Source: a virus. Taken from it: 29,849 bases of DNA. The notes below the pieces were generated by a model that saw nothing but the letters and a program-made list of their open reading frames with translations, was not told the DNA's origin and made no database searches. The stretch lies in IMG/VR virus record IMGVR_UViG_3300044970_002554, positions 1 to 29,849 of that record, one strand, 5' to 3'. This document shows positions 4,875-29,849 of this stretch, in pieces (the first letter of the stretch is position 1; every line of letters starts with the position of its first letter). The position numbers were made by a program, and so were the translations under genes.

Positions 4875-6935
4875 TTACTTGCTTGTTGCACGGTAAACTC
4901 CGTCCCAATCTTTAGGCAAGTCCTTTGCCTTCATTTCTTCACAACGTTCAATCCAAAGTTCGTAGTAGTGGTCCATTTCACCGAGGAATGAACCTTTTAG
5001 GTCTTGGCAGAATTTGATAGCTACATCAAACTTCTGCATCCTGTAGAGTTCCAACATCTTCTCATGTTGTTGAGTATTGACAACATACGCTGAATTCTCC
5101 ATCCACCAATCGTGTCTACCTAGGACGGTGTAGACATGTATACCCTCTTTCTTTCCTTTGACGGCAATGCAATCAAGTTCTAGTGTTGCATATTCATCTT
5201 CAACCTGTTTATTGGTATTCGCACCAATAACAATCTTCACACCATAAGGTTTACTCTGACCTTCTAGTCTTGCGGCAAGATTGACGCCATCACCGAGACA
5301 AGTATAATCAAAACGCATATTGCTCCCCATATTTCCAACCACGACAGTATCAGTATTGATACCAAGACCCATGCCAAATGGAGGAACACCTTCAGCCGTA
5401 ACTTCTTTATTGAACGCATCTAGACTACCCATCATTTCCAGTCCAGTTTTGACCGCCAGCTTTGCATGATTTGGTTCATCCAAAGGTGCATTCCAAAATG
5501 CCATCTGTGCATCTCCGATGTACTTATCCAAAGTTCCATTATTTTCAAGTATCTTTGCTGTCATTGCTGTCATGTATCGGTTCATAATTTTGGTCAAACC
5601 TTGTACATCTTTACCATAGTGTTCAGAGATTGAAGTGAAGCCACGAACGTCAGTGAACATGATCGATAGTTCACGTGATTCACCACCAAGTTGTAGTAGT
5701 TCTGGATTTTTTTGAAGTTTTTCAACCAAAGCTGGTGAAAGATATGTTCCAAATTGTTTCTTGATTTGCATTTTCTGCAAAAACTCGGAGACAAACTTAA
5801 CACCATATGCATGTAGACCAACAAGAATGATTGCAGTTACGAATGCTGTAATGTCAAAGAGCCAAGCATTCTGTGCATACACATACTGCGAACCAAAAAT
5901 GGCACCAAGTGTGAGTACAAGTATTGATGCAAGACCAACATAAGTCCATCGTGTGAGTATGAGTAAGAGTATACCAGCGCCAGCAATTGCTAAGATTTCA
6001 GCACCATCAGCCCAATCTGGACGATTGATGTTTGTACCAGCAATAGCCGTGTCTAGTACAGAGGCTTGCAGGTAGTGCGGATAAACTTCTCCTCTACCAG
6101 TTGCAACGGGATTGTTGAGTCCCCTTGCGGTAAGACCGACAATAACGATTCCACCTTTGAAGTCCTCTGGCAACTTAGCAAGGGAGTGTTCGGTTGGTCT
6201 TGAAGACCAATCCACCCAGATTCTACCGAGGTTATCTGTTGGAATTTTTCCAAACTGTGGAATTCGGACAGCTTCAATTGCTCCATCGACAACCTTAACC
6301 TGGAAAGAGGGGTCACCTGATGCAACTCTGAGGGTTTCGAGGGAGATGCTTGGGTAGAGTTTTGCGTCTGCACTAACGACCATTGGAACTCTGCGGACCA
6401 CACCATCGATTTCGGGAATAGTATTAACAATACCAATACCAGAGGCATTTTCATTTACGGACCTCACATTCGGTTGTACATTTTTATAATGAATTCCTGG
6501 ATCACCTTCACCTATGACTGAAACACCAGGACGAAAAGCAATAGATTTTGGAACATCCTCATTAGTTGCTGTATGTGGAAATACTACAGGATTTTGTTTT
6601 AGTGTGAAAGCAAGTTTAGAATCTTGACCAAACCTATCACCATCAGGCATGAAGATATTAAAAACAACCAACCCAGCACCATGCCTATACAGAGTATCAA
6701 TAATGGAGGCATATTCTCCACGTGGGAAAGGAAATTGTCCTTTTTGTCGAATAGTTTCGTCATCTATATTTACCACGTGGACTTGTTGGGACACAGTGGT
6801 TTCTTTTGAAGTTATTAGAGTGTCAAAATATCTGAGTCTAACGGACTCAATGAATGGTGAATCATAAAAACGAATACAAACAAAAAACAACAAGGTAATG
6901 ATGGCTGTCCACGGTGACAATAATATTTTTTTCAT
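4875..6935 (-). CDS. CHASE2-domain class III adenylate cyclase, membrane-bound
   Basis: A 686-residue sensor cyclase. It has an N-terminal transmembrane segment (about 8-23), an extracytoplasmic CHASE2 sensor (about 30-300, with VVNIDDETIR, FPRGEYA and YPHYLQASVLD), three membrane helices (about 313-376) and a class III cyclase domain (about 420-600). Metal-binding aspartates are Asp429 (FTDVRGFTS) and Asp475 (KYIGD). Lys471 and Thr545, at the purine-recognition positions, favour ATP over GTP, and Asn552 and Arg556 in VNLAARLE are the transition-state residues. All catalytic positions are intact, so it should make cAMP. It is the last gene of the minus-strand operon, coupled by an ATGA overlap to the FecR gene. 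Such cyclases are bacterial signalling proteins and are unexpected in a phage. Confidence 0.92.
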   Translation of the reverse strand: MKKILLSPWTAIITLLFFVCIRFYDSPFIESVRLRYFDTLITSKETTVSQQVHVVNIDDETIRQKGQFPFPRGEYASIIDTLYRHGAGLVVFNIFMPDGDRFGQDSKLAFTLKQNPVVFPHTATNEDVPKSIAFRPGVSVIGEGDPGIHYKNVQPNVRSVNENASGIGIVNTIPEIDGVVRRVPMVVSADAKLYPSISLETLRVASGDPSFQVKVVDGAIEAVRIPQFGKIPTDNLGRIWVDWSSRPTEHSLAKLPEDFKGGIVIVGLTARGLNNPVATGRGEVYPHYLQASVLDTAIAGTNINRPDWADGAEILAIAGAGILLLILTRWTYVGLASILVLTLGAIFGSQYVYAQNAWLFDITAFVTAIILVGLHAYGVKFVSEFLQKMQIKKQFGTYLSPALVEKLQKNPELLQLGGESRELSIMFTDVRGFTSISEHYGKDVQGLTKIMNRYMTAMTAKILENNGTLDKYIGDAQMAFWNAPLDEPNHAKLAVKTGLEMMGSLDAFNKEVTAEGVPPFGMGLGINTDTVVVGNMGSNMRFDYTCLGDGVNLAARLEGQSKPYGVKIVIGANTNKQVEDEYATLELDCIAVKGKKEGIHVYTVLGRHDWWMENSAYVVNTQQHEKMLELYRMQKFDVAIKFCQDLKGSFLGEMDHYYELWIERCEEMKAKDLPKDWDGVYRATSK

Positions 6936-7960
6936 TTTAAACCTTGTTTGATAATTGTTTTGTTTGTTGTATTATCCATATTTTTAATAAACAATGTAGT
7001 ACCGTCTTGGATTAGAGTGATATCATAGCCCTGATCTTTATTTATCAGCATGGTAAAATCTTGACGTATATGACGATTGAGTTGCCAATAACTATTTCGG
7101 TCAAAGACATATAATTGTGTTAATGCATTATAACCCACCTGAAAGGCATTCATTGTAAGAGTGTCTAATGCATTTGTGAGATAATTTGTATCTAGTTCAT
7201 TGATGTTTAGTTCATCATATTTTAATGCATCAACAAACACTTTAATGTCAAGTGCATTTCTATCAAGTTCGTTAAATGCAAGAGCATCAAATGTTTTTGA
7301 GTTTTCCTCAATCATCTGTTTAAGTATTTCTTTTGGTGGTTTAACAATCAACATATTATCGATTGCAGATTCACTTAAATTGAGTAGTGTCGGTTTCAAT
7401 GGTTTGATTTCAGCACCTGTTGTTACCGTGGCCTGAAATGCCTGATTTAATACAACTGAACCCATTGATGTACGAACTTCAATTTCACCAACTGAACCAT
7501 CAACGTTTGGTAATAATACAATCAATGATTGTCCAATTTCATCCACCGTCATAGTGAATGCCGTTCCACGAACCGCAATTGTTGCGGTCGGAGTATTGAT
7601 TGCTACGTTCTTAACGTTATCTTTTGCTATACTACCGGAGGCATAACGAACAGTGCCGAGAGCAACTTTCATTGCTAATTTTCCGGCACCTTTAGATTTG
7701 GGGTCATAAACAAAATCGTCAATAACCAATTTTGAATGTTCTGTTACCCGAACCTTTGTGTCATCTTCAAAGGTTATGCCAACAACACCATTGACAGTTT
7801 GAACAATATCATTCGATTCAATGCCAGAATTTATCTTGGCTCCTAACTTTGATTTCTGTCTAACTATCTCAGCATTACCTTTTTCTTCAGTTACCTTACC
7901 GATACCACCATAGCAATTAATGCTGAACAATAGTAGTAGTAGTGCTAGAACCTGTAACAT
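6932..7960 (-). CDS. Secreted FecR-domain protein
   Basis: A 342-residue protein with a signal peptide (LLLL-rich, residues 1 to about 18) and an N-terminal FecR domain (about 25-150). The domain carries the typical TPTATIAVRGTAF motif at 123-135 and the KVRVTEHSKLVIDDFVY segment. The C-terminal half is rich in Asn, Asp and Leu, with ELDxN-like repeats around 240-270, and has no family I know. FecR domains act as periplasmic sensory or structural modules. Genes for FecR proteins are often found beside CHASE2 cyclases in bacteria. Here the stop overlaps the cyclase start as ATGA. The start overlaps the end of the curlin-like gene by 44 bases, so a signal-peptide leucine run and a threonine run are read from the same DNA in two frames. 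Confidence 0.87.
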   Translation of the reverse strand: MLQVLALLLLLFSINCYGGIGKVTEEKGNAEIVRQKSKLGAKINSGIESNDIVQTVNGVVGITFEDDTKVRVTEHSKLVIDDFVYDPKSKGAGKLAMKVALGTVRYASGSIAKDNVKNVAINTPTATIAVRGTAFTMTVDEIGQSLIVLLPNVDGSVGEIEVRTSMGSVVLNQAFQATVTTGAEIKPLKPTLLNLSESAIDNMLIVKPPKEILKQMIEENSKTFDALAFNELDRNALDIKVFVDALKYDELNINELDTNYLTNALDTLTMNAFQVGYNALTQLYVFDRNSYWQLNRHIRQDFTMLINKDQGYDITLIQDGTTLFIKNMDNTTNKTIIKQGLK

Positions 7961-8624
7961 TCAGCGTAATTATGTTTGGTGTTGTGGTTCCATTTTGTGT
8001 AATGGAGACGGCATTACTATCACCAATAATATTTGCTGTAATTTTATGTCCAGCAAAAGACGGGGACCCGTGAGCACCAATCTGATTCGTTGTTACATTA
8101 TTTGAGTTACCAAGAACACTAATATTGTTTTCGATATATTTACTGTTCATATTAGACAACACATTGTTCAAATTACCAGCAATCGCTAAAGTATATTGAT
8201 AGTTGTTGGTTATATGTGAAGTACCCATATTGAATTCAACGGTGTTGTTGTCACCGGTCTTGTTCACATTCATGGTACCACCGTTGGTACCAAAGTTACC
8301 CTGATTCAATTTAAATATGTTACCGGAACCCGTCTGTGTGATGGCCGCTGTAGAATCACCACCAATAAAATTACCAATAATGGAGTTGTTCATACCATCT
8401 TGGTTAATTGTTAATTGCATTGAGTTACCATCGATAACAAATGCTGGTGTGATTAGATTGGTTCTGTCACCAACTTGGTTTCCAGAACCAGTTTGTGTTA
8501 TACTAATTGATGTATTATCTGAGTTAGTTTGGTCAATATACACTGAGTTGCCACCACTATTTGTCGCAAATGCGCTGGCAACGAATAACAAAGACATGAT
8601 ACTAGAGAGTATCGTCTTTTTCAT
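7917..8624 (-). CDS. Curlin-repeat (CsgA/CsgB-like) amyloid subunit candidate
   Basis: A 235-residue protein with a Sec signal peptide (MKKTILSSIMSLLFVASAFA) followed by irregular curlin-like repeats rich in Gln, Asn, Gly, Ser and Thr. Recurrent units such as SISITQTGSGNQV, LTINQDGMNNSI, AAITQTGSGNIF and MNVNKTGDNNTV follow the SxxxxQxGxxN strand-loop-strand pattern. About eight or nine units can be seen, more degenerate than E. coli CsgA. It is probably exported through CsgG and assembles as amyloid or a beta-solenoid. A good Shine-Dalgarno GAGGAA precedes ATG 8624. The gene lies 2 bases after csgG. No separate nucleator is seen, so it may serve as both major subunit and nucleator. Confidence 0.85.
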   Translation of the reverse strand: MKKTILSSIMSLLFVASAFATNSGGNSVYIDQTNSDNTSISITQTGSGNQVGDRTNLITPAFVIDGNSMQLTINQDGMNNSIIGNFIGGDSTAAITQTGSGNIFKLNQGNFGTNGGTMNVNKTGDNNTVEFNMGTSHITNNYQYTLAIAGNLNNVLSNMNSKYIENNISVLGNSNNVTTNQIGAHGSPSFAGHKITANIIGDSNAVSITQNGTTTPNIITLNVTGSSTTTTIVQH

Positions 8625-8626
8625 TT

Positions 8627-9427
8627 TTATTCCTCTTCTGTTTTTAATTGTTTAAATTTCCACAATCCTTTTCGCTCACCCTGATATACTAATTCCTCAA
8701 CTGCCAAATCGATAGCCGCTTTCACTGCATAAATTCCTGGCTCAGTTGATGTGCTTCCAATCTCATTTTCAAATGCTTTTGTTCCTGAATCGAAAAACTT
8801 AAATGTAGAGATTGATGTTGCAACACTCAGAATAGTTTTTTGTGTATTCACCGTAAGTATTACTTCACCAGTTTGTACGTTCACTGCCCGTAGAGAAACG
8901 GTAACCATATCTTCTTGATATTGTGTACTCGGTCCAATGCCTAAGTACCTCCATCCAAAACCACCTGTACGCTTATTAGTATCATAAGAAACTATAGCAC
9001 CTTCAATAATCATTCCTGCAAAAAGTATAGGCCTAAGATTAGTAGAGTCTTTCATTTCATCTCTTGCTGAACGTATTAATTGCCGCTCTTTCAAAAGATT
9101 GTCCAATCCAACTCTTTCAACAATTCTAAACCACTGTCCATCTCCAACATCTGCTAGTGCTTTTAATAATAATGATTCTGCACCCTGTGTAACAGCAGAT
9201 GATAATTTTGCAATAGTTGCAGAATCTTTTCTTTGACCCGTTTTATCCATAAACTGATAAACGGCAACAACGATTGGTTGTCCACTTTCTGGTTCAGGAA
9301 AAGGTATTTTAAATTTTGTAGGCGCAACTTTTTCAGCTTCCAGTGCTTGATCTGGAAACATTACAGGAACAGCGGCGCAGCCTGTTAAAAAAGCCGACAA
9401 TAGAATAGTGTATATTAAGCGTTGCAT
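8627..9427 (-). CDS. csgG: CsgG-like curli secretion channel lipoprotein
   Basis: A 266-residue outer-membrane lipoprotein homologous to CsgG (277 residues in E. coli), which forms the nonameric pore that exports curli subunits. The lipobox LTGC has Cys17 as the acylation site. The periplasmic domain begins with PIVVAVYQFMDKTGQ, then has RIVERVGLDNLLKERQLIR, FAGMIIEGAIVSYDTN, GFGWRYLGIGPSTQYQEDMV and LRAVNVQTGEVI, all typical CsgG segments including the barrel-forming and constriction regions. Length suggests a complete channel. The start overlaps the csgF stop as TAATG. CsgE is not found nearby, so substrate delivery may differ or use host CsgE. Confidence 0.93.
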   Translation of the reverse strand: MQRLIYTILLSAFLTGCAAVPVMFPDQALEAEKVAPTKFKIPFPEPESGQPIVVAVYQFMDKTGQRKDSATIAKLSSAVTQGAESLLLKALADVGDGQWFRIVERVGLDNLLKERQLIRSARDEMKDSTNLRPILFAGMIIEGAIVSYDTNKRTGGFGWRYLGIGPSTQYQEDMVTVSLRAVNVQTGEVILTVNTQKTILSVATSISTFKFFDSGTKAFENEIGSTSTEPGIYAVKAAIDLAVEELVYQGERKGLWKFKQLKTEEE

Positions 9428-9876
9428 TAGAATTTAAACTGTGCTACTGGGATGATAACTTGTGTGACTGTACCATCTTGACCTGTCACAGTTAAATTAA
9501 TTTCATCACCTGTTTTCGAATACTTAATTGTGTTACCTGAAATAACAACAGTTCCAGATTCTTTTGGATTTTCACCAAAAAGATTGTTCACCAACTGTGA
9601 AGATAATTGTGCATACACACGTGATTCAAAGTTGTTTAAAAACTTCACCAAGTTCGTATTGTTTGCCGCAGTTGCCGCATCTTTAATTGCTTGGAGTTTT
9701 GCAGATTCTATTGCATCTTTTCGTACACGTTCCGTATTTTCTATAGTCTGCACGTGTGACGAATATCCAATACCTGAAAATGCCGGCGATTTGAATGAAA
9801 ATGCCAATTCAGCTTTGCTTGTTGTCGTCATCATGGCGATAACTGCCATCAGTGACATTTTTATTAATTTCTTCAT
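9427..9876 (-). CDS. csgF: CsgF-like curli assembly protein
   Basis: A 149-residue secreted protein with a signal peptide ending near SKA. The mature N-terminus ELAFSFKSPAFSG matches the CsgF segment that inserts into the CsgG pore (TMTFQFRNPNFGG in E. coli). The middle has a FLNNFESRVYAQLSSQLVNNLFG helix, followed by a C-terminal beta-rich region with LTVTGQDGTVTQVII. CsgF caps CsgG at the cell surface and couples secretion to nucleation. It overlaps the upstream small membrane-protein gene by 68 bases; starts at Met7 or Met10 would shorten this overlap. Its presence with CsgG suggests a working secretion-nucleation complex. Confidence 0.87.
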   Translation of the reverse strand: MKKLIKMSLMAVIAMMTTTSKAELAFSFKSPAFSGIGYSSHVQTIENTERVRKDAIESAKLQAIKDAATAANNTNLVKFLNNFESRVYAQLSSQLVNNLFGENPKESGTVVISGNTIKYSKTGDEINLTVTGQDGTVTQVIIPVAQFKF

Positions 9877-24299: not shown

Positions 24300-25496
24300 A
24301 TGTTACCGTTTTCCCGATTTTTAACAGAGCAAGAAGACCCTGAAGAAGGTGCGAGCCGTCAGATTAAACATCTCACGCACGTGGAAGACCGCCCGCTTCA
24401 AAACGGAGAGAAGGGTGCTAAACATGCTATTGCTTCACTTACAACTGCCGCACAACACATACAGCAAGGTAAAAAGTCATCCGAGTTGACAACAAAATAT
24501 GATGGTTCTCCTGCCATTGTTTATGGACACCACCCAGAAAACGGCAAGTTTTTTGTAGCATCAAAATCAGCTTTCAATAAGACTCCAAAGATTAATTACA
24601 CTCCTGCTGATATTGAAAAGAACCATGGACACGCACCTGGATTGGTGAAGAAGCTGAAGGATGCACTTCAGCATTTACCTAAAGTTGCACCAGAAAAAGG
24701 TGTATATCAGGGTGACATGATGTTCTCGCACGAAGATAAAACACCAGCAAAAGGTGGTGGAACATCTTTTCACCCAAACCCATCAGGATTAACATATACA
24801 GCACATGGCACACATGAAAATGCTGTTAAGAAGGCCAAAATTGGTGTTGTAACACATCTTTCTTATTCAGGTAAAGATGCTGGCAGTTTGAATGCGTCAC
24901 ATGAAGTTGACCACGAAAATTTCAAACAACACCCTGACGTTTTCTCAGTTGATCCTAGAATGGATACTTCCAAAGTTCACTTTGGTCCTAAAGACAGAGC
25001 AGAATTCAACAAACATATTGCGGCCGCACAAGCTGTACATGATACGCATGGTGATGACATGTATGCTGGCACCAAAACTCACCATGGTGTTGGTGGCCAC
25101 TTAGAAACTTATATGAATCATACCGTTCGTACAGGCGAAGCACCAAACCACCAGAACTTCTCGAATTGGTTGGAAACTAAGAAAAACAAAGAAATAGACA
25201 AGTTGAAGGTCGAAAAGAACCGAACCGCCAAACAGTCTGAACTGAAAGATGAATTGGGTAAAGTTGACCGAAACCGAAAACACTACAATAATTTGTTTAA
25301 AATGCACCAGCATTTGCAGAAAGCAAAAAACGTGCTAATTAATGTAATGAATCAACATCAGGAATTCCAACATGAACATGGTGGTGAAGCGGCAAATCCA
25401 GAAGGTTACGTCTTCCACCACGGAAAAGAATCAGATAAATTTGTTAATCGTGCAGAATTTTCCCGCAGAAACTTTGCAGGAATCAGAAACATATGA
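24300..25496 (+). CDS. Ligase-like covalent nucleotidyltransferase candidate
   Basis: A 398-residue protein of a family common in T4-like marine phages (DUF6267-like). Its motifs fit the covalent nucleotidyltransferase fold of RNA/DNA ligases. Motif I TTKYDGSPAIVYG has Lys66 as the likely AMP-accepting lysine in KxDG. A motif III-like stretch is GVYQGDMMFS, and a motif IV/V-like C-terminus is NPEGYVFHH...SDKFVNR (Glu368, Lys380). A Lys/Glu-rich helix lies between, near 290-350. The N-terminus LPFSRFLTE is like a T4 capsid-targeting leader. Whether it seals nucleic acid is unknown. GAGG precedes the start; ATGA overlap with the next gene. Confidence 0.6.
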   Translation: MLPFSRFLTEQEDPEEGASRQIKHLTHVEDRPLQNGEKGAKHAIASLTTAAQHIQQGKKSSELTTKYDGSPAIVYGHHPENGKFFVASKSAFNKTPKINYTPADIEKNHGHAPGLVKKLKDALQHLPKVAPEKGVYQGDMMFSHEDKTPAKGGGTSFHPNPSGLTYTAHGTHENAVKKAKIGVVTHLSYSGKDAGSLNASHEVDHENFKQHPDVFSVDPRMDTSKVHFGPKDRAEFNKHIAAAQAVHDTHGDDMYAGTKTHHGVGGHLETYMNHTVRTGEAPNHQNFSNWLETKKNKEIDKLKVEKNRTAKQSELKDELGKVDRNRKHYNNLFKMHQHLQKAKNVLINVMNQHQEFQHEHGGEAANPEGYVFHHGKESDKFVNRAEFSRRNFAGIRNI

Positions 25497-27406
25497 AAAA
25501 GTTTTTACAAAAAATAGAAGAAGACATGCAAACAAACAAGCCTGTTGTTATGGCTTTTGGACGTATGAATCCACCAACTATTGGTCACGAAAAGTTGGTC
25601 AACCGTGTTCAAGATATTGCACGTGATTATAATGCACCACATCACATTATCATTTCACATTCTGTGGATGCTAAGAAGAATCCATTAGACATTAAACGTA
25701 AATTGATACACGCAAAACGTTTCTTTCCTGGTGCTAACATCGAATCTTCCAGCAAAGAAATGCCAACGTTCTTGCAACATGCGGCTAGACTACACGCTAT
25801 GGGTCACGATCATTTGATTATGGTTGCAGGATCAGACCGTATTCCAGAATATGAAAAGAAACTTCATCAGTACAATGGTGAGGGTCCAGGTAAACTATAC
25901 AATTTTAAAAAGATTGAGGTAAAGTCTGCTGGCCACCGTGACCCCGATGCAGAGGGTGCTGAAGGTATGTCAGCATCCAAGATGCGTGAACATGCAAACA
26001 GTGGTGATTTTGCTTCTTTCCGTCAGGGTGTTCCGGCACATGTGCCGGAGAAACACGCCAAAGAATTGTTCCGTGATGTTCGCAAAGGTATGGGTATACA
26101 CGAAAGCGTGAACCATGGAATGTTCAAAGCTATTTTTATTTCTGGTGGTCCAGGTTCAGGTAAAGATATCGTTATACGTGAAGCTATTGCTGAACAAAAT
26201 GCAGTTGAAATTACTTCAACCACTGCAATATCAATTTTGAACGACAAACATAAACTCTATGAATTTTCACGTGACACCCGCCGTGAAGCAATACGCCAAC
26301 GTCAACCCTTAATTATTACAGGCACAACAAACGAACAATACAACATTATTGCCATTCGTGAAGAACTTGAAGAACTTGGTTACGAAACTATGATGGTTTT
26401 TGTTAACACTTCAAATGAATCATCTAGAAAGCGTAACGAGGGCCACGAAAGAATGATGGCTGAATCTGTTCGCCAACAAAGATGGGAAGTAACACAACTT
26501 GTTGCAGAGAAATTCAATCAGGAATTCAAGAAGTATTTGGAGTTTGATAACTCTATTGACCTGAATGAAGCAAACGAAATTGAAACGTCAGAGAAAGAGG
26601 AAGACATTTCTATCATATATGAAATGACTAACTGGTTTTTTGACACCCCTGTTGAGAATGAAATCGCCGAATCTTGGATGACGAGGCACAAAAAACATAA
26701 CATCAATAAGATGTTTGAAAACTTTATAACAAAACCTACATTAGAAAAGGGATACAAAAAATATGTTTCAGAAACTAAAACAAATAGCAAAGCTATTCTT
26801 GCCGAAGGACCAAGTTGCACCTGTGGAGACAAAACCACATCCACTGGACGGTCCAACCAGAAAGGCGATTCTTACAAACGCTACAGACTTGCCGACAACA
26901 TCTGTCCAAGTTGCGAACTTGTCAGAAGACAGGGTAAGCCAGACGACATTAAAGACGGAGGAATTACCTCAAACTCAGGTTACACCTTCAGAACCTACGA
27001 AAGCAGTAGCCCAACCATCACCACCAAAGGTCCAGAAAGAGAAACCCGTTTCCAACAAGACAACGACAAACAAAAATCCAAGAGGCAGAAAACCTCAAAC
27101 GCCGAAAGCGGGAAAGTAATCAAAACTTCTGGTGTAACTCCTGAGTATGATACACGTGGTTCCGGTACAGTTTATCCGATGGCTGGTCTTGGTCAAGTGA
27201 CATATAGAGAACAGACTGAACATAAATATGATAGTACCGCAGAGGTGACACGCAAATCTTTCAATAAGTTTAGAAAAGAATCAATTGATTCTCCTAGCAC
27301 AGAAATGGGAGTCACCGGTGGCTATCATGGTCCATCGAATAAAGAACCAATGGATACTTTGAATAAGATACCCGTTAATCCTCCAACAAAGAAGAAAAAG
27401 AAATGA
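25493..27406 (+). CDS. Two-domain protein: HIGH-type nucleotidyltransferase plus P-loop kinase
   Basis: A 637-residue protein. Domain 1 (about 15-185) is an NMNAT/cytidylyltransferase-like fold with FGRMNPPTIGHEKLV (HxGH-type TIGH) and a C-terminal SASKMREHANSGD in the place of ISSTxxR. Domain 2 (about 210-360) is a P-loop kinase of the zeta-toxin/polynucleotide-kinase type with Walker A GGPGSGKD (218-225), DTRREAIRQRQPLIITGTT and a nucleotide-binding SSRKRNEGHERM. A long polar tail follows, with a Cys-rich segment near 441-475 that could bind zinc. Similar NMNAT-kinase fusions (NadR, NadM-like) make or repair NAD, so a role in NAD metabolism or in end-healing beside the ligase-like protein is possible. 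Confidence 0.72.
   Translation: MKKFLQKIEEDMQTNKPVVMAFGRMNPPTIGHEKLVNRVQDIARDYNAPHHIIISHSVDAKKNPLDIKRKLIHAKRFFPGANIESSSKEMPTFLQHAARLHAMGHDHLIMVAGSDRIPEYEKKLHQYNGEGPGKLYNFKKIEVKSAGHRDPDAEGAEGMSASKMREHANSGDFASFRQGVPAHVPEKHAKELFRDVRKGMGIHESVNHGMFKAIFISGGPGSGKDIVIREAIAEQNAVEITSTTAISILNDKHKLYEFSRDTRREAIRQRQPLIITGTTNEQYNIIAIREELEELGYETMMVFVNTSNESSRKRNEGHERMMAESVRQQRWEVTQLVAEKFNQEFKKYLEFDNSIDLNEANEIETSEKEEDISIIYEMTNWFFDTPVENEIAESWMTRHKKHNINKMFENFITKPTLEKGYKKYVSETKTNSKAILAEGPSCTCGDKTTSTGRSNQKGDSYKRYRLADNICPSCELVRRQGKPDDIKDGGITSNSGYTFRTYESSSPTITTKGPERETRFQQDNDKQKSKRQKTSNAESGKVIKTSGVTPEYDTRGSGTVYPMAGLGQVTYREQTEHKYDSTAEVTRKSFNKFRKESIDSPSTEMGVTGGYHGPSNKEPMDTLNKIPVNPPTKKKKK
26763..27119 (+). CDS. Possible overprinted gene inside the kinase tail
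   Basis: A second open frame of 118 codons lies in a different frame within the C-terminal tail of the 637-residue protein. It starts at ATG after an AAGGGA and encodes a Pro/Thr/Lys-rich protein ending RGRKPQTPKAGK. The DNA in this stretch is unusually rich in A and C, and the main frame there has many C-ending codons, unlike its neighbours. It may be a real basic, disordered protein, or only a by-product of base composition. Confidence 0.3.
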   Translation: MFQKLKQIAKLFLPKDQVAPVETKPHPLDGPTRKAILTNATDLPTTSVQVANLSEDRVSQTTLKTEELPQTQVTPSEPTKAVAQPSPPKVQKEKPVSNKTTTNKNPRGRKPQTPKAGK

Positions 27407-27696
27407 TAAGTTTCAAAAAATTTCTAGAAGAATCTGCCGCTTGGAAGCGCAAAGAAGGTAAAAACCCAGAAGGTGGTTTAAACCGCAAAGGTATTGCTTC
27501 TTATCGCCGTGAAAATCCAGGTTCAAAATTATCGATGGCTGTTACTACACCACCTTCCAAATTAAAACCTGGAAGCAAAGCGGCCAATAGAAGAAAATCA
27601 TTCTGTGCTAGAATGGGTGGAATGCCAGGTCCAATGAAGGACGAAAAAGGTAGACCAACTAGAAAAGCATTATCACTACGCAAATGGAACTGCTAA
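27403..27696 (+). CDS. Small basic conserved phage protein with leader-like N-terminus
   Basis: A 97-residue very basic protein with a strongly conserved look: KRKEGKNPEGGLNRKGIASYRRENPGSKL, then KSFCARMGGMPGPM and a KRPTRK-like end ALSLRKWNC. Many T4-like marine phages carry this small module, alone or as a domain of larger proteins. It begins MISFKKFLEESA, which resembles T4 capsid-targeting leaders. It probably binds nucleic acid. ATGA overlap with the upstream gene shows translational coupling. Confidence 0.68.
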   Translation: MISFKKFLEESAAWKRKEGKNPEGGLNRKGIASYRRENPGSKLSMAVTTPPSKLKPGSKAANRRKSFCARMGGMPGPMKDEKGRPTRKALSLRKWNC

Positions 27697-27713
27697 TTAT
27701 AACGGAGAAATAA

Positions 27714-28373
27714 ATGTTCACTAAAAACGTATTCACCCAAACCGATGTTGTTGCCGACCTCATCAAAGATATCAATGAAGCCGATTTTAAGGCTAAGATG
27801 GAAGCATTGAAGGGTAATCAACACAAGATTGATAAAAATAAAAATAATAAGATTGATGCTCACGACTTTAAAATTCTCCGTGGCGAAAAGAAAGTCAACG
27901 AAGAAGAACAAGTCGAAGAAGATACAAGTGTTAAAATTCCTACTTCCACCGGAACAAGAGTTTTAGGTCACCGCTACGGTAATGCCGCAAAGACTCATCG
28001 TGATTCTATGGCTGATCCTTTTGCAGTAGTCAAAGGTCCTAAACAAAAGGACATAGAAGACCTTGAAAAGAAAAAGGTCAAAAAAGAAGAAATTGATCCT
28101 AAAAAAATTACAACTGACACCCTCGCAGGTCAGGTCAAAGGTAAAACTTCTAATCCATTTGCACCAAAAAAAGTGATGATTGACGTTGCAGGTAACGTTA
28201 AAGAAGAAGTTGAACAAGTTGATGAACGTGAACTTTCTAAAGGTGAAACTGCCGAAAAAGAACGCATCGTTAAGGGCATGAAAAAATCTCTTGCAGGTTT
28301 CAAATCACGTTACGGTGACAAAGCAAAATCCGTAATGTATGCAACAGCAACAAAGGCCGCTAAAAAGGACTAA
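27714..28373 (+). CDS. Modular low-complexity protein with EF-hand-like loop
   Basis: A 219-residue charged protein. A 12-residue loop DKNKNNKIDAHD at 40-51 has Asp/Asn at the calcium positions 1, 3, 5, 9 and 12 with Ile at 8, as in EF-hand or dockerin loops. The middle is disordered and Lys/Glu-rich. The C-terminus GMKKSLAGFKSRYGDKAKSV is a basic helical module seen in marine T4-like phages. It contains the linker EEVEQVDERE, also present in the next protein. CGGAG lies before the start. Role unknown; virion-internal or scaffold-like is possible. Confidence 0.6.
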   Translation: MFTKNVFTQTDVVADLIKDINEADFKAKMEALKGNQHKIDKNKNNKIDAHDFKILRGEKKVNEEEQVEEDTSVKIPTSTGTRVLGHRYGNAAKTHRDSMADPFAVVKGPKQKDIEDLEKKKVKKEEIDPKKITTDTLAGQVKGKTSNPFAPKKVMIDVAGNVKEEVEQVDERELSKGETAEKERIVKGMKKSLAGFKSRYGDKAKSVMYATATKAAKKD

Positions 28374-28376
28374 GCA

Positions 28377-29849
28377 ATGAGCAAAGCTGGTAAATTAGTC
28401 AAGGATATGGTGAAGGCCAAGAAAGAGTCTGTTATGGGCAAACTTGGCGATTCACCATACGAGGATCCAATGGAACCTTGGTCTGCAAAATATGCACAGC
28501 CCGTCAAAGAGGAAGCCATAAATGAGGACGGCCTTTTGATGAAGTACATCCGTTCCCTCGGATTTAATCCAGAATTTATGTCATTCGCACAGCGTTCTTC
28601 ATATGCACGTTCGAATGCTTTTAAACGTTTCAAAACTGGCCACACATTTGATCGTGAAAAACAGAATTTGAAAACAGAAGAAGCTGAACAACTCGATGAA
28701 GCTGGTACAGGTCTTCTAATGTCTTTCATTAAGTCTAAAGGTTTAAATCCATTGACGATGGATGGAAATCAAAAGAAAGCATATGCACGTTCTTCAGAAT
28801 TCAAAATTTTCAAGATGCGCCACATGAAAGAAACATCCGGTATGGGTGAGCGTGGTGATGATTGGAACGAAGAAAAGAAAGCAGTAAAAGAAGCTGTTGA
28901 TGTTAAAGACACAGTGACGATGGACATTCCATTGCTAATTCGTGTTCTGGAGTATGCACGTGAAGATGCTAAGACTGATATGGACCTACACAAAGTTGTT
29001 GAGAATCTAATCAACATGCGTGGTGAAGGTGCATTATCTATGGACATGTACAATAAAATTGTTGCAATCAAAGAAGAAATTGAAAAGCTAGACGAACTTT
29101 CTTCCGACATGCTAGGTCGTTATAAAAAAGCCGCCGGCGTTCAAGCATCTGCCGCAGATAAAGCTGGTGATTATGCCAAGGGTAACAAACGTTTCTCTGG
29201 TATCATGAAAGCAACCAAAAAACAATTCGATAATGATGCCAAAAAAATTAACGAATTAAAAAATCAAAACGATAATATGGAAATCGATGACCGTATTACA
29301 CGTGAAGATTTGCGTAAGTGGTTCAGCAAAACTGATCCTGAAGGTGATTGGAAAAGAATCAACTCAAAAGGTGATGCAGTGGGTCCGTGTGCCAGAGAAC
29401 CAGGTGAACCTAAGCCAAAATGTATGTCAAAGGAAAAACGTGCTGAATTAAGTAAGAGTGAACGTGCGGCCGCAGTAGCAACTAAACGTAAGCATGACCC
29501 TGTTGCAGACAGAGCCGGAAAAGGCGGTAAACCCGTCAATGTTTCGAATTATGGTAAGGGTAAACTGGGTGAAGAAACCGTTGATGAAGCATGTTGGGAT
29601 ACTCACAAAAAAGTTGGCATGAAAATGAAGGGTGGCAAGATGGTTCCAGATTGCAGACCTAAAAACGAAGAAGTTGAGCAAATCGATGAAAAGAATAAGC
29701 CAACAAATCCTGCACTATGGTCCAGAGCAAAATCAATGGCCCGTTCCAAGTTCGATGTTTATCCTTCTGCATATGCAAACGGTTGGGCATCTAAATGGTA
29801 TAAGTCAAAAGGTGGTGGTTGGAAGTCTGTCAAAGAAGACGTTGTGCAA
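28377..29849 (+). CDS. Large modular phage protein, 3'-truncated by the window edge
   Basis: An open frame of 491 codons runs off the right edge. Residues 53-86 and 113-146 are two copies of a helical repeat (LLMxxIxSxGxNP...YARSxxFKxFK). A coiled-coil-like middle (about 165-300) follows. Then come small basic modules: CWDTHKKVGMKMKGGKMVP and TNPALWSRAKSMARSKF with YANGWASKWYKSKGGGW. These modules recur in marine T4-like phage proteins. Modules are joined by acidic linkers EEAEQLDEA, GEETVDEAC and EEVEQIDEK. ATG 28377 is the first start after the upstream stop. Likely structural or internal, but not proven. Confidence 0.68.
   Translation, partial: MSKAGKLVKDMVKAKKESVMGKLGDSPYEDPMEPWSAKYAQPVKEEAINEDGLLMKYIRSLGFNPEFMSFAQRSSYARSNAFKRFKTGHTFDREKQNLKTEEAEQLDEAGTGLLMSFIKSKGLNPLTMDGNQKKAYARSSEFKIFKMRHMKETSGMGERGDDWNEEKKAVKEAVDVKDTVTMDIPLLIRVLEYAREDAKTDMDLHKVVENLINMRGEGALSMDMYNKIVAIKEEIEKLDELSSDMLGRYKKAAGVQASAADKAGDYAKGNKRFSGIMKATKKQFDNDAKKINELKNQNDNMEIDDRITREDLRKWFSKTDPEGDWKRINSKGDAVGPCAREPGEPKPKCMSKEKRAELSKSERAAAVATKRKHDPVADRAGKGGKPVNVSNYGKGKLGEETVDEACWDTHKKVGMKMKGGKMVPDCRPKNEEVEQIDEKNKPTNPALWSRAKSMARSKFDVYPSAYANGWASKWYKSKGGGWKSVKEDVVQ

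Follow-up and report, generated by a model that had tools for sequence, protein, structure and literature searches.

The window analysed here, the whole 29,849-base virus record IMGVR_UViG_3300044970_002554, belongs to a phage from water that is T4-like, as judged by eye from its PolB, UvsX and gp41-type genes, and it ends in a block of five + strand genes (24300-29849) that encode a DUF6267 protein, a cytidylyltransferase/P-loop protein, a DUF6321 protein and two modular proteins. The DUF6267 gene (24300-25496; PF19782, E 4e-94), for which a ligase/nucleotidyltransferase-like fold was modelled, opens with the capsid-targeting-like leader MLPFSRFLTE (24300-24329), which is in the exact T4 register and detachable in homologues, with a predicted cut LTE/Q after nucleotide 24329 (slashes mark predicted cuts and joint borders). 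The next gene (25493-27406) encodes a cytidylyltransferase/NMNAT-like protein with a P-loop (AAA_33/zeta-like) part (phrog_3041; the AAA_33 match is weak). It starts with a degenerate leader, MKKFLQKIEE (25493-25522), which falls outside the T4 register with Lys instead of an aromatic residue at position 7. The DUF6321 gene (27403-27696; PF19846, E 4e-24), a homologue of which is virion-flagged in the cyanophage S-SCSM1, begins with a second capsid-targeting-like leader, MISFKKFLEE (27403-27432; predicted cut LEE/S after nucleotide 27432).

The two modular proteins matched no family in a Pfam search. The first (27714-28373) combines an N-terminal stretch ending INE, an ALKGNQHKID module and a basic C-terminal module, and contains the joint EEVEQVDE/R (28203-28226), followed by the RELSKGETAEKERIVKGMKK module. 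The second (28377-29849) continues past the window end and has up to seven segments with x[ND]E joints between them: EEAINE/DGLLMKY (28509-28526), EEAEQLDE/AGTGLLM (28677-28700), followed by the second copy of a GLLMxxI module, EEIEKLDE/LSSDMLGRY (29073-29096), the weak candidate KINE/LKNQ (29244-29255), EETVDE/ACWDTHKKVGMK (29571-29588), and EEVEQIDE/KNKPTNPALW (29667-29690). At the place equivalent to the joint at 29571, the virion-flagged gp29 of S-SCSM1 reads LFNE/DCWDGYEKKGMK. Leaving the acidic linker aside, most of the segments between the joints are basic. All leaders and linkers quoted in an earlier note, drawn up from the letters of this DNA, were found where it had described them; it had missed the joints at 28509 and 29073, the weak one at 29244 and the degenerate leader of the 25493 gene. 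A 166-kb relative, G001, shares the five genes and their order and also has an S77 (gp21-type) prohead protease and gp23; its DUF6267 protein is 92% identical to that of the window, and G001:109218-111245 encodes a full-length relative of the 28377 gene.

The resemblance of LPFSRFLTE and ISFKKFLEES to the T4 leader, on which the earlier note had built, holds down to the register: in both the 24300 and the 27403 genes the leader lines up exactly with the T4 IPIII capsid-targeting sequence (CTS), with aromatics at residues 4 and 7, an aliphatic residue at 8 and Glu at 10. These are the positions conserved in the ten-residue leader consensus, M-x-x-[FY]-x-x-[FYH]-[ILM]-x-E, and a T4 review assigns residues 4 and 7 of IPIII to targeting and residues 8 and 10 to processing on the basis of mutagenesis (PMC9026906). 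We searched genomes with the strict pattern M-x(1-4)-[FY]-xx-[FYH]-[ILMV]-x-E, fixed after leaders had been seen in 7 of 16 genomes, using gene starts from our own open reading frame caller, which overlooked some annotated starts or set them at a wrong position (S-CREM2 gp6 and gp14; S-SZBM1 gp192). In the 16 S77-positive genomes, the pattern matched 36/3862 gene starts vs 11/13259 internal Mets, and 20/2202 vs 5/7326 in the nine genomes unseen when it was fixed. With the first aromatic at residue 4, as in T4, 34 of 4365 starts matched in 18 S77 genomes vs 4 of 14964 internal Mets (p = 2.7e-18), and the pattern slid over 12 other positions recovered only 0 to 4 starts each. The register was present in 35 of 4594 genes from 19 S77-positive genomes (S-SZBM1 being counted as such on its annotation) vs 0 of 713 from five S77-lacking ones (SPO1, N4, G008, G009 and G016; p = 0.006, a value that, like the other p-values, overstates independence because homologues share ancestry). 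The leader is rare, with 0 to 5 genes per genome and none in HTVC008M. Its bearers in relatives include a S-adenosylmethionine (SAM) lyase (PF23780), a RimK-like ATP-grasp protein, a kinase-like protein and NMNAT-like proteins, and the matching T4 genes are ipII, ipIII and gp61.1. The case for the leaders is strong.

T4 gene 61.1 (NC_000866 18966-19130) encodes a 54-residue hypothetical protein in the exact register (MKTFKEFIKE/D), which may be an unrecognised T4 internal protein; similar small proteins with a leader occur in G001, G003 and G004. A second N-terminal type, roughly MINxKKxDxVAxxVxxILxxE, is found in modular proteins (G002:98919-100370, G003:142957-143436, G005:150904-151971 and the 27714 gene of the window), where some 20 residues end with E before the first module. 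The start of gp22, MGKFNLTDAAKAILTE, is similar, and this type is possibly a second targeting leader. Nothing on leaders was found in the accessible portions of PMC3037559 and PMC2993671.

Most of the diverse DUF6267 loci have a leader ending in xE, followed by xKNTHxxHLED; others begin MSKNTHLEHLED or MAKANTHLTHLEE, where the mature protein is predicted to start, and MSKNTHLEH is a leaderless start form. The leader is thus detachable, since it sits exactly where leaderless homologues begin. It was detected by the search pattern in 46 of the 68 anchored loci, a count from which 12 of the 80 loci, without anchor, were excluded. In agreement with the detachable leader, the AlphaFold2 model of the window protein (38 rows; mean predicted local distance difference test score 88.6) has residues 1-20 below 50, and the fold begins after them. 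If a protein is carried into the prohead, internal protease sites should be selected against. The 58 leader-bearing domains contain on average 2.9 [LIVMFY]xE sites, and the reversed motif occurs 6.3 times (p = 2.7e-10); in the 10 leaderless domains the two averages are 7.7 and 7.8. All ten leaderless domains have more sites than their nearest leader-bearing relative (six of them share one relative), and the DUF6267 tree has at least two leaderless origins. The sole [LIVMFY]xE of the window protein is the leader site itself. At two loci, L417 and L436, the Glu at the leader cut is replaced (FITK/D and FQTQ/D), which may reflect a loss of processing.

The predicted fold of DUF6267 appears to resemble that of RNA/DNA ligases. 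The best Foldseek hit of the model had an E-value of 0.016 and the top 18 rows were all ligase entries; with VIA-align, a Naegleria RNA ligase scored Z 9.3 (root-mean-square deviation 3.7 over 185 residues), and the 50 matches listed were all ligases or the adenylyltransferase domain of a tRNA ligase. As in covalent nucleotidyltransferases, K66, D68, G69, E368 and K380 are invariant in the 38 rows; we take KxDG to be ligase motif I, the Glu motif IV and the Lys motif V. A sequence search of DUF6267 against solved structures gave no relevant match and none to a solved ligase, and a diverged relative in G006 lacks the Lys. No paper on DUF6267 was found among open-licence PubMed Central (PMC) papers. 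The profile phrog_455 matches both the window DUF6267 protein and the adjoining NMNAT-like protein, in separate parts, and we infer that the two could be packed in the head as a ligase/NMNAT pair that works on the ends of nucleic acids upon entry.

Joints, defined as E-rich stretches ending [LIV][DN]E, amounted to 198 linkers in 111 frames, preceding 61 downstream clusters. The linkers that had been pointed out between modules (EQLDEA, ETVDEA, EQVDER and EQIDEK) are all present, and it is by position that such linkers stand out, one kind of joint being found ahead of many modules that are unrelated to each other. A genome-wide excess of [LIV]DE was discarded as linker evidence, since [LIV]DE does not occur more often than [LIV]ED, and the linker claim therefore rests on position, not on frequency. 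This absence of enrichment would also suit an alternative that we consider rather unlikely, in which the leaders are genuine capsid-targeting signals and the xDE joints are flexible acidic linkers or recombination seams instead of protease sites. The middle residue of the joint, nearly always Asp or Asn, unlike that of the leaders, points the same way, as does the small number of contexts available for most modules: among seven other modules submitted to register tests, only ALKGxQHKID had enough, with E directly before it in 9/9 clusters, and this E may belong to the module.

This alternative is opposed by DUF6321, which provides the cleanest test of the joint because its upstream contexts are so varied: it can follow an N-terminal leader, a leader and then LDE, a leader-like stretch inside a protein (such as LSFKQYLNE, which in one case lies at about residue 200) or an xDE linker, and the Glu is at the border. 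A border E was recovered in 88 of the 114 loci (79 hydrophobic-x-E and 9 other E), the rest comprising 23 loci with none and 3 unclassifiable ones. When the loci were grouped by unrelated upstream sequence, hydrophobic-x-E stood before DUF6321 in 30 of 43 clusters, against a chance expectation of 8%, and leaders end at the residue where the joints do. The DUF6321 forms without E start at Met (including MAKTPAW) or follow Gly/Ser/Lys-rich sequence. Among contigs of at least 100 kb, S77 was present in six of the seven E-type ones (G001-G006, not G010) and in none of the three with no-E forms (G008, G009 and G016); its absence on contigs below 100 kb is uninformative because many E-type ones also lack it. 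G007 (128 kb, S77-positive) was left unclassed, its DUF6321 not matching the anchor used. The case for the joint as a protease site is good for DUF6321, judging from these sequence comparisons, and plausible for the other modules. The 132-residue protein encoded at G002:96021-96419, with the leader MKTFKQYLDE, a KGRCWTGYKPV module, SVDE and DUF6321, is a candidate for a minimal polyprotein.

Packaging in the capsid, proposed in the earlier note for some of these proteins, is supported by published virion lists of relatives. We used the lists of S-CREM2 and S-SZBM1 and the GenBank virion flags of S-SCSM1. Annotated starts were taken for eight leader proteins and, in S-CREM2 and S-SCSM1, also for the listed proteins, so that a leader on an unlisted gene whose start was miscalled may have escaped the comparison. 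In these three cyanophages, five of the eight leader proteins are listed in virions vs 1.5 expected (p = 0.006). The S-CREM2 list holds a SAM hydrolase, an APH/ChoK-like kinase and a cytidylyltransferase (PMC10665884, Table 3), which start MKDFDSFLEE, MKRFDAFLTE and MKNFSSFLTE, respectively, and the capsid protein of this phage reads GLLTE/APTQ. Leaders occur in 3 of the 50 S-CREM2 virion proteins that were matched (out of 52) vs 0 of 182 others (p = 0.0095). In S-SZBM1, the cytidylyltransferase gp140 starts MRFRQFIIE and is in the virion list (PMC9146016, Table 1). In S-SCSM1, the NMNAT gp91 (MKSFLQFLKE), the multi-module gp29 (DUF6321 at its C-terminus; joints VSE/GAAW and FNE/DCWD) and two proteins with xDE joints, gp89 and gp92, are all virion-flagged; our own GenBank count for this phage is 48 flagged coding sequences vs 45 in the paper (PMC9602691). 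Across cytidylyltransferase homologues, a strict leader was present in 25 of 93 distinct contexts, some of the others beginning at the domain, and homologues with good leaders are virion-listed. The virion of S-CREM1 is described with 14 proteins in PMC9964418.

The listed enzymes could instead be contaminants of CsCl preparations, which would leave packaging of the block unsupported. The S-CREM2 authors themselves allow for such carry-over (PMC10665884), and a leaderless translational repressor is also virion-flagged in S-SCSM1. We regard this explanation as improbable, given that leader proteins are over-represented among the listed ones and that the leaderless DUF6267 protein of S-SZBM1, gp141, is absent from the list; its gene adjoins that of gp140. 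The idea of a generic amphipathic N-terminus, serving for example translation or folding and unrelated to the head, has very little chance of being right: short hydrophobic N-termini are common and the pattern is rare, but it occupies a single register, is missing from S77-lacking phages, matches T4 internal proteins and is enriched in virions, with site depletion only where a leader is present. The virion-listed gp12 of S-CREM2 (OR473000, 7704-10313), annotated as a CRISPR-Cas9 nuclease and with no Pfam match, has a leader-like RFASFMAE/A that ends near residue 25 and not at its start.

Cutting by the prohead protease, another part of the earlier proposal, is supported indirectly by the T4 register, the DUF6267 site depletion, the conserved DUF6321 joint and a matching LxE site in the capsid protein. 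S77 is present in relatives, including G001, and the major capsid proteins of relatives have LxE-type sites, for example FLSE/A, FLAE/A and LLTE/A. In G001, where the comparison with the capsid cleavage site could be made, gp23 reads MLNE/A.

Several observations weigh against a head-cargo role for the block. No S77 protease was found in the 29.8-kb window, itself a fragment, and the cut in the window phage is a prediction from sequence. Besides the weakened leader MKKFLQKIEE, shared by the window cytidylyltransferase and its close relatives, and the scarcity of independent contexts for modules other than DUF6321, site depletion was rejected as a feature common to proteins with a leader, since it falls short of significance in the 30 outside DUF6267 (114 vs 137 against 19952 vs 20219, p = 0.18). 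Three of the eight leader proteins are missing from the lists, namely S-SCSM1 gp30 (106 residues) and S-SZBM1 gp191 (105) and gp192 (165), and no leader-bearing DUF6267 protein appears in them, the sole listed phage in which DUF6267 was identified being S-SZBM1, with its leaderless, unlisted form. The possible carry-over acknowledged for S-CREM2 belongs here as well.

Taking both sides together, we consider it probable that the block encodes head cargo with capsid-targeting leaders, and that leaders and joints are cut by the S77 protease. The ten-residue leader would be the equivalent of the T4 signal and would bring both the DUF6267 protein and the DUF6321 protein into the core of the prohead, where the gp21-type protease would cut after the leader Glu and free the mature protein inside the head. 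If the same protease also cuts the [LIV][DN]E joints of multi-module proteins, one translation product would be split into a number of small modules, most of them basic. Once mature, the proteins would stay with the DNA and, by analogy with T4, would probably be delivered into the host at infection. This suggests that the phage of the window loads its head with a set of proteins alongside the genome.

We class the system as a variant of T4 capsid targeting in which the protease is probably used in a polyprotein-like way. It shares with the CTS of IPII and IPIII (and Alt) a ten-residue leader with key positions 4, 7, 8 and 10 and Glu at the predicted cut, and, in relatives, an S77 protease and a gp23-type capsid. 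It differs in that the leader stands on DUF6321 and on enzymes (the ligase-like DUF6267 protein and, in relatives, NMNAT-like, SAM lyase, kinase-like and RimK-like proteins), that some proteins have several internal xDE joints and that the phages are far from T4. The T4 core proteins gp22 and gp67 are likewise cut several times each by gp21, and small fragments stay in the head, according to PMC9026906 and PMC9958956, but the fragments here look like conserved, reshuffled, mostly basic modules and not like degraded scaffold. The ejection proteins of phiKZ and SPN3US are also packed in the head, and a diverged protease of the gp21 kind cuts them after Glu; motif, gene content and phage group are different there. 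The T4 review already suggests that the CTS may let T4-like phages pack varied proteins (PMC9026906). Its extension to these enzymes, the signature of site depletion and the rule of a joint before a module were not found in open-licence PMC papers.

Proteins that enter the host with the DNA are known for few phages. Kyanoviridae-like phages are abundant in sunlit water, and a sequence rule marking their injected proteins would explain the presence of SAM hydrolase, kinase and NMNAT-like enzymes in cyanophage virions and would provide a first functional context for DUF6267 and DUF6321. If the polyprotein reading is true, the leader predicts from sequence alone which enzymes act at the very start of infection, among them the ligase-like, NMNAT-like, SAM lyase and kinase proteins. 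The question is addressable with virion spectra already collected. We see about an even chance that in T4-like phages of aquatic bacteria the prohead protease serves to process polyproteins, with shuffled cassettes behind a leader providing tailored injected enzymes and basic peptides.

Elsewhere in the window, the 3104-4588 gene encodes a DUF7788/DUF2828 protein, here in a phage, which is presumably TROVE/vWA-like. An adenylate/guanylate-cyclase-like gene lies beside curli-export-like genes (CsgG-like by eye) at 4875-9876, and CsgF, CsgG, a curlin-associated protein and a cyclase are likewise annotated together in HTVC008M.

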